64,000 nucleotides of DNA from Bacteroides sp. GTDB lineage: Bacteria; Bacteroidota; Bacteroidia; Bacteroidales; Muribaculaceae. This document shows, piece by piece, positions 4,032-15,881 of this stretch (positions are counted from its first letter, which is position 1; each line of letters begins with the position of its first letter). The stretch is from assembly GCA_014802325.1 (NCBI GenBank), contig JAAVCK010000019.1:1-64000 (forward strand). The letters run 5' to 3'. The notes under the pieces are model-generated. The model saw only the letters and a program-made list of their open reading frames with translations. It was not told the origin of the DNA and made no database searches. Made by a program: the position numbers and the translations under genes.

Positions 4032-4428
4032 AACGGTAGCCCGATGGTTGTGTCGCTCACCGACGTATGAGCGGTGTGAGGAAAGTCCGGGCAACGTAGA
4101 GCGCCATATTTTCTAACGGGAAGCTGTCGGCGACGGCAGAGTAGCGTGACAGAAAACAACCGCCCGCCACCCTATCGGGGGCAGGCAAGGGTGAAAAGGT
4201 GAGGTAAGAGCTCACCGGGCTTTGCAGCGATGCAGAGTGCCGCACGCCTTATGGGTTGCAAGGCCAAGTATACCGGCATTTAAGGATTGCTCGTCCGCTG
4301 CCGGGGGGTAGGCTGCTTAAGTGCACACTGTGCACTCAGATAAATGACACGACCGCCGGTTCAACCCTCCTCCTGCGGGATGGAAGTGAACCGACGACAA
4401 AACCCGGCTTATAGTCGGACTACCGTTT
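4032..4428 (+). ncRNA. rnpB: RNase P RNA component (bacterial type A-like)
   Basis: Conserved GAGGAAAGTCCGGGC (CR-I region), ACAGAAAACAACCGCC, GGTAAGAGCTCACC and AGATAAATGAC. Terminal P1 pairing AACGGTAG..CTACCGTT. TATCTTTG -7 box at 4015-4022. Confidence 0.93.
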
Positions 4429-7875: not shown

Positions 7876-9525
7876 ATGGAATGGCTTCTTAAGCTGCTTG
7901 GCCCCGGCAACATGGAACTGGCGAGTACTCTGGTGCTCTACTCTTTCGTGATTGCAGCCGGAGTGTTTCTGGGCAAAATCAAGGTGGGAGGCGTTTCGCT
8001 GGGTGTCACGTTTGTGCTCTTTGTGGGCATCATCATGGGTCACCTCGGCTATGTCGTCAATCCCGAAGTGCTTAAATTCGTCAGGGAGTTCGGTCTTATC
8101 CTGTTCATCTTTTCTATCGGTCTGCAAGTTGGCCCGGGTTTCTTCTCGTCGTTTAAGCATGGCGGTATTCTGCTCAACATGCTTGCCGTGCTGATAATCC
8201 TTCTCAACGTAGCTATAGTGCTGATAATCTTCTACATCGACGGCAATACCTCGATCACTGCCCTTGTAGGCGTAATGTCGGGAGCTGTCACCAATACACC
8301 CGGTCTGGCAGCCGCTCAGCAGACAGCAGGCTCGCCAGAGGCCATAAATCTCATGGCCATGGGATATGCCGCCGCTTATCCTCTCGGTGTGATAGGTATA
8401 ATCCTGTCGATGTTCGTTGTCAGGATTCTGTTCAAGATCAAGCCCGAGGATGAAGTGGCCGCTATCAATCAGGAAGCGGAAAATTCCACGAGCAAGCCTC
8501 TCATACTGTCGTTTGAGGTAACCAACGCGCTCATTGACGGCAAGACTCTTCACGAGCTGCATCAGATACTCGACTGCGACTTTGTGGTGAGCCGACGTAT
8601 GGGTAGCGACGGAAAGGTGGAAATACCTACTTCCAAGACCGAGGTACACGTGGGCGACAAACTCTACGTGGTGCTTTCTGCTTCAGCAGAGGTGCGTTTT
8701 CAAGGCGTGGTAGGCCACGAGATAAAAATGGACTGGGAGGAGGTGCAGAGCGAAGTATTCTCGCGCCGCATCGTCATCACGCAGAACAAATACAATGGTG
8801 TTCGCCTGGGTGCTCTCCGACTCCATACAGCCTACAGCCTCAACTGCACCCGCGTCAACCGTTCGGGTGTGGATCTTCTGGCCTCGCCCAATCTCCGCCT
8901 GCAAGTTGGCGACCGCCTCACAGTGGTGGGTGACCTCAACGATATAGAGCGACTTGGCGTGCGCCTGGGCAACTCGATGAAGCGCCTTGACCACCCCAAC
9001 CTCATCACTATATTTGTCGGCATACTTTTCGGTATCATCCTCGGCTCGATAAATGTGGGCTTCGGCATGAAACTCGGTCTGGCCGGCGGCCCGCTGGTAG
9101 CCGCCATTCTCATGAGCCGTTTCGGATATAAGTTTAAGCTCGTGACCTACACATCATCCTCAGCGTCGCTCATGCTCCGCGAGCTGGGTATTTGCCTCTT
9201 TCTTGCATCGGTAGGCATATCGTCGGGCAAGGATTTTGCCGCCACGGTGTTCAACTACACCGGTATGTGGTGGGTAATATGGGGCTTCATCATCACTTTC
9301 ATACCCCTGCTCATAGTGAGCTGCATAGCGCGCGGTGTTTATAAGATCAACTATCTCACCATCATGGGTCTCGTATCGGGCGGATGCACCGACCCCCCTG
9401 CGCTGGCCTACGCCAACGGCGCCACCGGCAGCGACGCCCCGGCCGTAGCTTATTCTACAGTCTACCCGCTCACGATGTTTCTGCGCGTGGTTGCGGCTCA
9501 GGCTCTGATATTATGTTTCTTCTGA
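7876..9525 (+). CDS. AspT/YidE/YbjL-type transporter with two RCK_C (TrkA-C) domains
   Basis: Duplicated membrane domains (TPGLAAAQ; SGGCTDPPALAYA) flanking two TrkA-C-like segments. Confidence 0.87.
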   Translation: MEWLLKLLGPGNMELASTLVLYSFVIAAGVFLGKIKVGGVSLGVTFVLFVGIIMGHLGYVVNPEVLKFVREFGLILFIFSIGLQVGPGFFSSFKHGGILLNMLAVLIILLNVAIVLIIFYIDGNTSITALVGVMSGAVTNTPGLAAAQQTAGSPEAINLMAMGYAAAYPLGVIGIILSMFVVRILFKIKPEDEVAAINQEAENSTSKPLILSFEVTNALIDGKTLHELHQILDCDFVVSRRMGSDGKVEIPTSKTEVHVGDKLYVVLSASAEVRFQGVVGHEIKMDWEEVQSEVFSRRIVITQNKYNGVRLGALRLHTAYSLNCTRVNRSGVDLLASPNLRLQVGDRLTVVGDLNDIERLGVRLGNSMKRLDHPNLITIFVGILFGIILGSINVGFGMKLGLAGGPLVAAILMSRFGYKFKLVTYTSSSASLMLRELGICLFLASVGISSGKDFAATVFNYTGMWWVIWGFIITFIPLLIVSCIARGVYKINYLTIMGLVSGGCTDPPALAYANGATGSDAPAVAYSTVYPLTMFLRVVAAQALILCFF

Positions 9526-9598
9526 TATAGTCAACTTTCCATTTCATTTAGCTGCCGGCGGATTGAATCACTTGATCCGTCGGCAATATTTTTTCAGC

Positions 9599-10516
9599 AT
9601 GAAAACTTCGCAGTTTCTTCAGCGACTCAAGCCGTGGATGCTACCCATTGCCATGGCTGGCGGCATAGTGTTTCATTCTTTTATGGAAAAGGTGGAATTC
9701 GTAGCGCCCTATCTGATATTTCTGATGCTTTATATCACATTCTGCAAGGCCGATTTCCACCGCTTGCGTCTCACCCGCATGTCGCTCCTGCTGCTTTGTG
9801 TGCAGATCCCCGGCTCACTCGTAGCCTACTACGCTTTCATGCCCCTCGGAGCCGATGTGGCACAAGGTGCATTCATATGCGTGTTTTGTCCCACGGCCAC
9901 GGCAGCCCCCGTCATCACAGCCATGCTCGGGGGTAGCATATCGGCATTGATAGCATATTCCATCGTGTCAAATATTTCTGTAGCATTGCTCGCGCCAGTC
10001 ATATTCACATTTCTTGGCAACGGCGCCGAGGTGAATTTTACCGACTCGGTGCTCACCATATCTGCCAAAGTGATTCCGCTGATTCTGCTTCCGCTTGCAG
10101 CAGCTATAGTGACCGGCCGCATCAGCCCCCGCACTCGGCGCGCCATTGCCGAGCACCAGCAACTGTCGTTTTATATCTGGGCCTTATCGCTGTTTATCGT
10201 CGTTGGACGTGCGGTCACTTTTGTAATGGCTGAACCGGTGGAAATGGCTCCACGGATGATACTGATAGCTCTTGTGGCCGGAGTGATGTGTGTGGCCCAG
10301 TTCTATATCGGCCGACGCATCGGCCGAGCCTGCGGCGACAAGATAGCCGGCGCGCAGGGACTCGGACAAAAAAACACCGTTCTAGCCATATGGATGGCTC
10401 TGTCATATCTAAATCCCATTTCATCTGTAGGCCCGGCGGCCTACATAGCTTGGCAGAATACTATCAACTCTCTTCAGCTATATTTCAAGAGCCGTAAGGA
10501 AACAAATCGCGATTAA
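9599..10516 (+). CDS. Bile acid:sodium symporter-like (BASS/ACR3 superfamily) membrane transporter
   Basis: About 9-10 TM segments, FCPTATAAPVITAMLGGSISALIAYSIVSNISVALLAP. Confidence 0.65.
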   Translation: MKTSQFLQRLKPWMLPIAMAGGIVFHSFMEKVEFVAPYLIFLMLYITFCKADFHRLRLTRMSLLLLCVQIPGSLVAYYAFMPLGADVAQGAFICVFCPTATAAPVITAMLGGSISALIAYSIVSNISVALLAPVIFTFLGNGAEVNFTDSVLTISAKVIPLILLPLAAAIVTGRISPRTRRAIAEHQQLSFYIWALSLFIVVGRAVTFVMAEPVEMAPRMILIALVAGVMCVAQFYIGRRIGRACGDKIAGAQGLGQKNTVLAIWMALSYLNPISSVGPAAYIAWQNTINSLQLYFKSRKETNRD

Positions 10517-14606: not shown

Positions 14607-14993
14607 TCAAAATAATTGGAGATCTGATGGATTTATATTATCAAACCATTCATTAAGCTTAGCTTTCGCCTGTCGATGGGTATTTGCCGATATATTTGAC
14701 CAAATATTTTTGACTGCCAAAACAAGAGCACCGGCATCATCTACAAATCCGCCCGGCAAAAAATCAGGAATAAAGTCTAATGGAAGTATAAAATAACCAA
14801 GAGCGCCTACTACTATTGCTTTATCTGACATCGGAACTTCTTTATCAAACATAGCATAGTACAATAACAATGCTGCATAAATTACTTTCACTCCTGCCTT
14901 TTTTGCAACGTCGCTAATTTTGCTAAACAATTTTTCAGGAGAGAAATAAGACATGAATGATTCTGCTGTTGAAGCACTAAATTTTATTGCCAT
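14607..14993 (-). CDS. YkvA/DUF1232 family membrane protein
   Basis: DKAIVVGALGYFILPLDFIPDFLPGGFVDDAGALVLAVKNI is the DUF1232 signature. Confidence 0.88.
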   Translation of the reverse strand: MAIKFSASTAESFMSYFSPEKLFSKISDVAKKAGVKVIYAALLLYYAMFDKEVPMSDKAIVVGALGYFILPLDFIPDFLPGGFVDDAGALVLAVKNIWSNISANTHRQAKAKLNEWFDNINPSDLQLF

Positions 14994-15018: not shown

Positions 15019-15384
15019 TTATTTGAGCTGTTTAAGTGATTCTACAAACATTTTTCCCGAGAGATAAAATTGAGCATATACAATAAATGGCTCAATAAAG
15101 AAAAATGCCGATAACATAAAATCAAGAATAAAAGCAACAGCGATGTTTACAACAAAACCTAAACCTATCAATTTGCCTTTATTCTCGCTAAATGAAATAC
15201 CTACTTTCTCGGAGATCTTGCTATACATATTCCATAAAACGGCTATGAAAATAAAACCTCCGAATCCGAAATCAGGAAGCGCCATAAGTAATGCACCTAT
15301 TAACGCACGTTTTTTAATAATTTTGAAAATATCTTTTTCAAAATACTTGTTGGCTAATTTCGCCGCTATTGCACCTTCAAACAT
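15019..15384 (-). CDS. Hypothetical integral membrane protein
   Basis: Several hydrophobic segments, co-oriented with the DUF1232 gene. Confidence 0.6.
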   Translation of the reverse strand: MFEGAIAAKLANKYFEKDIFKIIKKRALIGALLMALPDFGFGGFIFIAVLWNMYSKISEKVGISFSENKGKLIGLGFVVNIAVAFILDFMLSAFFFIEPFIVYAQFYLSGKMFVESLKQLK

Positions 15385-15465
15385 GATAATAAATGTCTTT
15401 TGAAAATTATTTTTACTAAGTGCCTCCTTACTCCCTAATTCGGCGGTAAAGGTTTGGATATAAGA

Positions 15466-15735
15466 AAAGAGGGGAATTTATCGCGCCTCTATCATAGTTA
15501 CAACTGGCTCGCCAAAGCCAACACGCTGAATGATATATGAGGGTAGAATAAACTGCCCCTCTGATTTTGTCTATACTGAAATACAGCGATAACGCCGCAC
15601 GGACAGGTGTGACAAAAACAGAAAGAGCGTCTAATCTTACTTCATCTCAGCGTGGTATTGAATTGGCGATTCGTTGTAACTGAGAAAGAAAGCTTGACAC
15701 TTTTCTTATCCGACGGTATTTCTCTTCCATCAGAC
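15466..15735 (-). ncRNA. Candidate structured RNA (stand-alone sRNA or leader/attenuator)
   Basis: TAACTTTG box on minus strand (15740-15747). Long-range inverted arms at 15642-15681 and 15497-15533 (GTTACAAC/GTTGTAAC, TCGCCAA/TTGGCGA, CACGCTGA/TCAGCGTG). AGAGGGG (15556-15562) is complementary to CCCCTCT (15468-15474), which precedes a T-rich run. Confidence 0.45.
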
Positions 15736-15881
15736 ACGGCAAAGTTAATCAATTTTTTTGATTAGTCGCTCTTTGTAAAGCAATTTATTCTACACGCCTA
15801 AGAATTTGAAGGGATTTCAGACGGCAAATTATCAATCAAATATGATTTTACCTTTAGTATATCCGTAATTTGAGTCGACGA

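Follow-up and report, generated by a model that had tools for sequence, protein, structure and literature searches.

Several described RNAs resemble, each in part, the element studied here, which occupies the minus strand at 15747-15422 of a 64,000-nucleotide stretch of Bacteroides sp. DNA (contig JAAVCK010000019.1, positions 1 to 64,000; hereafter the window). FopS and GibS are paralogous multi-copy small RNAs (sRNAs) of Bacteroides, and the element shares with them a multi-copy Bacteroidota RNA family, the canonical promoters of the phylum and the occurrence in a phage (PMC11697453). However, FopS is composed of a single-stranded 5′ stretch and one terminator hairpin, whereas the element has a much larger pseudoknotted fold standing before genes (PMC11697453); as the single-stranded 5′ seed followed by one terminator hairpin is not found in it, the element was not assigned to the FopS family. 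The Rfam motifs Bacteroid-trp, Bacteroidales-1, Bacteroides-1, 6S-Flavo and Flavo-1 (PMC2864571) are structured RNAs of the same phylum, none of which matches the element by covariance model. Searching all Rfam 15 covariance models gave no match at the gathering score and nothing relevant at relaxed thresholds, and six remote loci of the family had no relevant Rfam 15 match at E<=0.1. The palindromic candidate RNAs HMP2_4078 and HMP2_4205 of Fremin and Bhatt (2021) are likewise from Bacteroidetes and about 110-130 nt long, one of them near phage domains; the accessible part of that report describes no leader, promoter or pseudoknot for them, and they are set apart from the element by this description only (PMC8040213). 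Core sequence strings of the element occur only in unrelated papers, and no matching description was found in the literature searched (bioRxiv and supplements lay outside the search). The RNA family is new relative to Rfam 15 and this literature; the palindromes of PMC8040213 may coincide with a portion of the fold. Orphan riboswitch candidates and attenuator leaders are also promoter-proximal 5′ leaders with conserved helices, a pseudoknot and a U-tract strand with alternative partners, yet the element differs from them in that its 47 copies precede about 32 unrelated gene families and in that it brings its promoter with it.

The element belongs to a large, uncatalogued family of structured RNAs of Bacteroidota. 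A promoter box and a 5′ hairpin are followed by three stem blocks, nested in one another, and by an apical domain; then come a CCCCUCU strand with a U-rich tract and a 3′ hairpin (15422..15444) that forms the 3′ limit of conservation. A preliminary description of this locus had proposed an unannotated structured RNA not covered by any open reading frame (ORF). The three arm blocks, the box and the pseudoknot strands that it listed are all present at their positions, and no ORF of at least 50 aa covers the element. The minus strand 15738-15460 folds at -103.7 kcal/mol against -65.6 (standard deviation, sd, 4.7) for shuffles (z = -8.1), a result that agrees with the proposed RNA, as do the missing Rfam 15 match and the homologs. 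The shorter segment 15685-15495 reaches z = -8.8, and the opposite strand folds less strongly (z = -5.4).

The pseudoknot and the RNA helices are supported by covariation. The homology check yielded 46 further close copies plus remote relatives; the close set comprises 47 distinct copies including the window, after one chance pattern match (L116, Hyphomicrobiales) had been removed upon sequence inspection. Two low-score model matches lacking the motif (L195 and L196) were dropped as well. Among the close copies, nine column pairs, each at least 89% paired, exceed everything in 30 runs of a phylogeny-aware null in which substitutions are redistributed on the tree. Such pairs occur in the 5′ hairpin, in both the outer and the inner arm, in the UCGCCAA/UUGGCGA helix and in the GGCU/AGCC hairpin. 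The long-range stem claimed in the preliminary description is borne out by these pairs and by the compensating changes of its arms: cells changed on both sides number 175, compared with 47 in shuffles, and pairing drops from 95.5% to 43-50% when the partner is slid by one to three columns. Counts of G·U against A·C cells were 153:14, 95:11 and 9:0. This large excess of G·U argues that the selected molecule is an RNA of the minus strand and not a DNA hairpin. In remote elements the core helix alters as a unit, for instance to UCUGACA, ACUGGUA or AUCGUCA with fitting right strands, variants that illustrate the helix and do not test it, since a matching partner was required at their collection.

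The pairing of AGAGGGG with CCCCTCT, suggested earlier as a pseudoknot, is likewise upheld. Over 62 remote elements the two strands (X′ and X″) score 11.65 with their own partners against 9.16 (sd 0.21) with permuted ones. Two subtypes exist among the close copies, AGAGGGG...CCCCTCT and AGTGGGG...CCCCACT, so that the change of the pseudoknot is already a compensating one. Remote relatives share this architecture; there the 3′ strand reads CCACGC-UUUUUU and its partner GCGUGG.

Across the 47 copies, the outer and inner arms show a limited set of recurring variants, combined differently. Two loci (L094 and L098) have nearly identical ends and different arms on both sides, and in this small sample the arm variants may have diversified within genomes.

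A DNA search of 61 relatives detected copies 80-95% identical in several genomes, on contigs with differing cargo genes. A pattern of the invariant segments was found in 34 of 397 genomes of the bacterial family, its reversed control being near-empty, and scanning 84,980 species genomes produced 43 stretches, nearly all from Muribaculaceae-like metagenome assemblies. Genomes having close copies hold one to three each, and the window's own genome holds a single DNA-level copy. These low numbers led to rejection of a dispersed inverted-repeat scar of a miniature inverted-repeat transposable element (MITE), an origin that had been raised for the arms and that would leave many copies in the genome. 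Covariance models recover more distant members. The model of the close group finds weaker relatives in 18 of 27 genomes of the genus and 12 of 247 Bacteroidales genomes. Model R2, built from ten remote elements only, detects the family in 146 of 393 Bacteroidales genomes; in a set of 396 genomes from the phylum it has members in 32, other orders and classes among them; up to six candidates per genome were scored, and copy numbers are therefore lower bounds. R2 was built without the window element and nevertheless recovers it (36.9 bits, E 5e-5). A third model, R3, has members in 25 of the 27 genus genomes and adds two elements from the genome of the window itself (C27:66225-66453 and, weakly, C5:171891-172102). 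The gene behind one element (54.4 bits; L292, 2752-2957, plus strand) is prepilin-like and of a kind often met in bacteria of the Planctomycetes-Verrucomicrobia-Chlamydiae (PVC) group, and the family may reach beyond Bacteroidota.

The element lies as a leader ahead of genes. Every one of the 47 close copies has a TAnnTTTG box, whose distance is nearly constant and whose nn positions vary. An ATG-started co-directional ORF comes soon after the RNA in 43 of the 47, and in 37 the gene starts 51-68 nt past the U-tract, while a control scan of the divergent side with a wider window found 6 starts in 38. At remote loci the next ORF is co-directional in all 22 scorable cases, and some remote copies (L249 and L258) have the start codon directly at the U-tract. 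In the close copies the gene next to the RNA encodes, among other kinds, leucine-rich repeat (LRR) and immunoglobulin (Ig)-like surface proteins, lipoproteins, DUF5683, DUF6140, SPFH, dynamin-like, FHA and polysaccharide export proteins; likeness to defence proteins is clearest for JukA (E = 5.7e-52) and weak for LeoA. Since the gene behind the RNA changes between copies, the leader is not specific to the membrane gene at 15384. Of the earlier suggestion that it could be a leader of that gene, the position stands, as homologs precede co-directional genes, and the gene specificity does not.

These distances bear on two other readings. The abutting start codons in some remote copies, and the 3′ hairpin immediately preceding the gene, would suit a translational leader in which the pseudoknot or the 3′ hairpin hides the gene start region and transcription is not terminated. 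However, genes in the window subfamily usually begin 51-68 nt past the U-tract, a tract conserved well ahead of the start, and we consider such a leader improbable. The promoter and the U-tract could alternatively delimit an independent trans-acting sRNA of about 270 nt, the gene behind being a neighbour or reached by read-through. Each close copy has its own promoter box, the U-rich end and the highly conserved unpaired segments B′ and A′ would fit, and multi-copy paralogous sRNAs such as FopS are known in Bacteroides (PMC11697453). Yet a gene starts on the same strand at a nearly fixed distance, and conservation runs past the U-tract into the 3′ hairpin, features that make an sRNA a rather unlikely explanation.

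The reading that we favour, with a confidence slightly above even, is a mobile, promoter-bearing leader that would attenuate accessory genes through competing pairings of the U-tract strand. Each copy would bring a promoter, a folded domain (outer stem, core helix made by the left strand and a hairpin loop, inner stem and apical hairpin), the pseudoknot 3′ strand running into the U-rich tract, and the final hairpin, with an accessory gene behind. In one state, CCCCUCU-UUUCUU would pair with X′ (AGAGGGG) and transcription would stop or the gene start be blocked. In the other, the U-rich part would close the RNA with the 5′ AAGAAAAG, X′ would pair inside the apical hairpin, and the gene would be expressed. 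The model was proposed because the U-tract strand has in X′ a strongly supported partner and at the 5′ end a weakly supported alternative. From the sequences we infer that the RNA is transcribed, that the alternative pairings are mutually exclusive in the cell with attenuation of transcription as the outcome, and that a signal, a protein or stress would exert control. Several observations weigh against this model. The pseudoknot signal of the close group comes mainly from one subtype change (10.73 versus 10.23), and the closing helix P1 co-evolves weakly (7.43 versus 6.88, sd 0.16; remote elements). A standard local-hairpin scan calls no terminator there, the pseudoknot being long-range, and the cargo has no evident common function that would name a ligand.

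The element and its cargo appear to undergo exchange among loci and to travel on phages. Among pairs of copies, 29 have a common upstream locus, 14 have a common cargo, and only 1 has both. For instance, the window and its ortholog in one genome (G005) have the upstream locus in common and RNAs that are 95% identical, followed by different genes, and the homology ends at the 3′ end of the element. In another ortholog (G018; L173 3458-4438) the RNA and the window cargo are missing and the upstream boxes A and B are kept up to ...GACTAATCAAA; a different gene, of 275 aa and EcsC-like by eye, lies upstream of the boxes. Phage and plasmid records searched at the DNA level and viral contigs scanned with the close-family pattern gave no element, and a phage or plasmid element in the narrow sense was rejected on these searches; the remote core pattern located the element on 12 viral contigs. 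Several of these elements adjoin tape-measure- or lysis-like genes and precede accessory genes, the cargo being variable. All four lines of evidence, namely the pair counts, the G005 boundary, the boxes retained in G018 and the different cargo of phage copies beside lysis genes, would also be expected if the structured nucleic acid were an exchange platform, a fixed cassette head whose structure or conserved DNA ends help to swap cargo. Nevertheless, no recombinase travels with the element, the G·U-rich helices indicate an RNA function, and the same pattern would arise from ordinary homologous recombination within a conserved leader; we give the platform a low probability.

Three further observations concern the surroundings of the copies. 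A stretch of 377 nt at L088, behind a DUF6140-type gene, matches part of the window cargo at 69% identity, indicating that this cargo recurs with the RNA at another locus. Six copies from different genomes (L014, L072, L077, L081, L087 and L101) have similar upstream chromosomal sequence and different cargo, and their upstream locus is likely an insertion or exchange hotspot. On one viral contig (L290) the element comes after lysis genes, and 9021-10085 on the minus strand encodes a reverse transcriptase that by eye is like those of diversity-generating retroelements.

Internal loop segments that pair with DNA are a property of the IS110 bridge RNA and of group II introns, through their exon-binding and intron-binding sites (EBS-IBS). 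Similarly, the loops A′ and B′ of the element are complementary to the adjoining DNA boxes A and B. Co-evolution of A with A′ amounts to 13.98 versus 12.11 (sd 0.26) in the window subfamily, and that of B with B′ is marginal because B′ barely varies. Unlike those systems, the element has no Rfam match and its A/A′ and B/B′ pairing is confined to the window subfamily, and a bridge-RNA or intron mobile element was rejected since no recombinase or reverse transcriptase is found among the first genes of the 47 loci. In 10 of 46 copies a second TAnnTTTG box lies directly before A, about 52 bp ahead of the -7 box (degenerate in the window copy). Owing to this second promoter box, a longer isoform of the transcript may include A and B, which might then pair inside the RNA. 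Solitary A-B was met once in 27 genomes, as a remnant, and remote elements show no significant A/B analogue; the idea that the boxes are target sites was discarded for these reasons. An invertible promoter (inverton) was likewise discarded, as the spacing of A/A′ and B/B′ differs between the sides, several copies have a degenerate B, and a reversed promoter is present in none. The RNA might also be the fixed head of a cassette-exchange system of Bacteroidota and their phages, in which the loops would pair with adjoining DNA, accessory and defence-like genes would be swapped at a precise boundary, and exchange or cargo expression would be under RNA-dependent control. We regard this as doubtful at best.

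Table 1. Features of the element and of the genes behind it in the window.
Feature	Position	Strand	Remarks
Upstream box A GTAGAATAAATTGC	15780..15793	-	complementary to RNA-internal A′; co-evolves with A′ in the window subfamily
Upstream box B GAGCGACTAATC	15760..15771	-	complementary to RNA-internal B′, one mismatch in the window
Promoter -7 box TAACTTTG	15740..15747	-	Bacteroidota TAnnTTTG
5′ hairpin, conserved loop around GAAGAGAAATA	15710..15733	-	covarying pairs 15731-15712, 15730-15713
5′ strand AAGAAAAG	15700..15707	-	pairs locally or closes the RNA with the U-rich 3′ strand (minimum free energy fold); equivalent strand in remote elements shows weak co-evolution
Outer arm, left GTTACAAC	15673..15680	-	pairs 15679-15498, 15678-15499 covary
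Core, left strand UCGCCAA	15663..15669	-	pair 15669-15509 covaries; whole helix varies in remote elements
Inner arm, left CACGCTGA	15647..15654	-	pairs 15653-15523, 15652-15524, 15651-15525 covary
B′ GAUUAGACGCUC	15625..15636	-	mostly displayed in hairpin loop; near-invariant
Pseudoknot strand X′ AGAGGGG	15556..15562	-	co-evolution with X″
A′ GCAGUUUAUUCUAC	15543..15556	-	RNA-internal, complementary to upstream box A
Inner arm, right TCAGCGTG	15522..15529	-	partner of 15647..15654; covariation
Core, right strand UUGGCGA	15509..15515	-	in the loop of hairpin GGCU/AGCC; 15516-15509 covaries too
Outer arm, right GTTGTAAC	15497..15504	-	partner of 15673..15680; covariation
Pseudoknot strand X″ CCCCUCU (15474-15468), then U-rich tract TTTCTTAT	15460..15474	-	terminator-like 3′ strand
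3′ hairpin GCC..GGC, conserved AGGGA	15422..15444	-	stem changes, e.g. CUCAC/GUGAG, by eye
Cargo gene 1	15019..15384	-	121-aa membrane protein, no Pfam family
Cargo gene 2	14607..14993	-	128-aa DUF1232 (YkvA-like) protein

Elsewhere in the window, a bacterial class A RNase P RNA lies at 4036-4427 on the plus strand (219 bits).

Our study provides a testable RNA with covariation-supported helices, together with three covariance models (R1, R2 and R3) for searching. If the favoured reading of an attenuating leader is true, a phylum dominant in the gut would possess an uncatalogued structured leader RNA of very wide distribution, for about a third of the sampled Bacteroidales genomes carry members, often several. 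Because it precedes accessory genes, including those of JukA- and LeoA-like anti-phage proteins, surface proteins and phage-borne genes, the RNA may serve as a shared expression switch for horizontally acquired genes.
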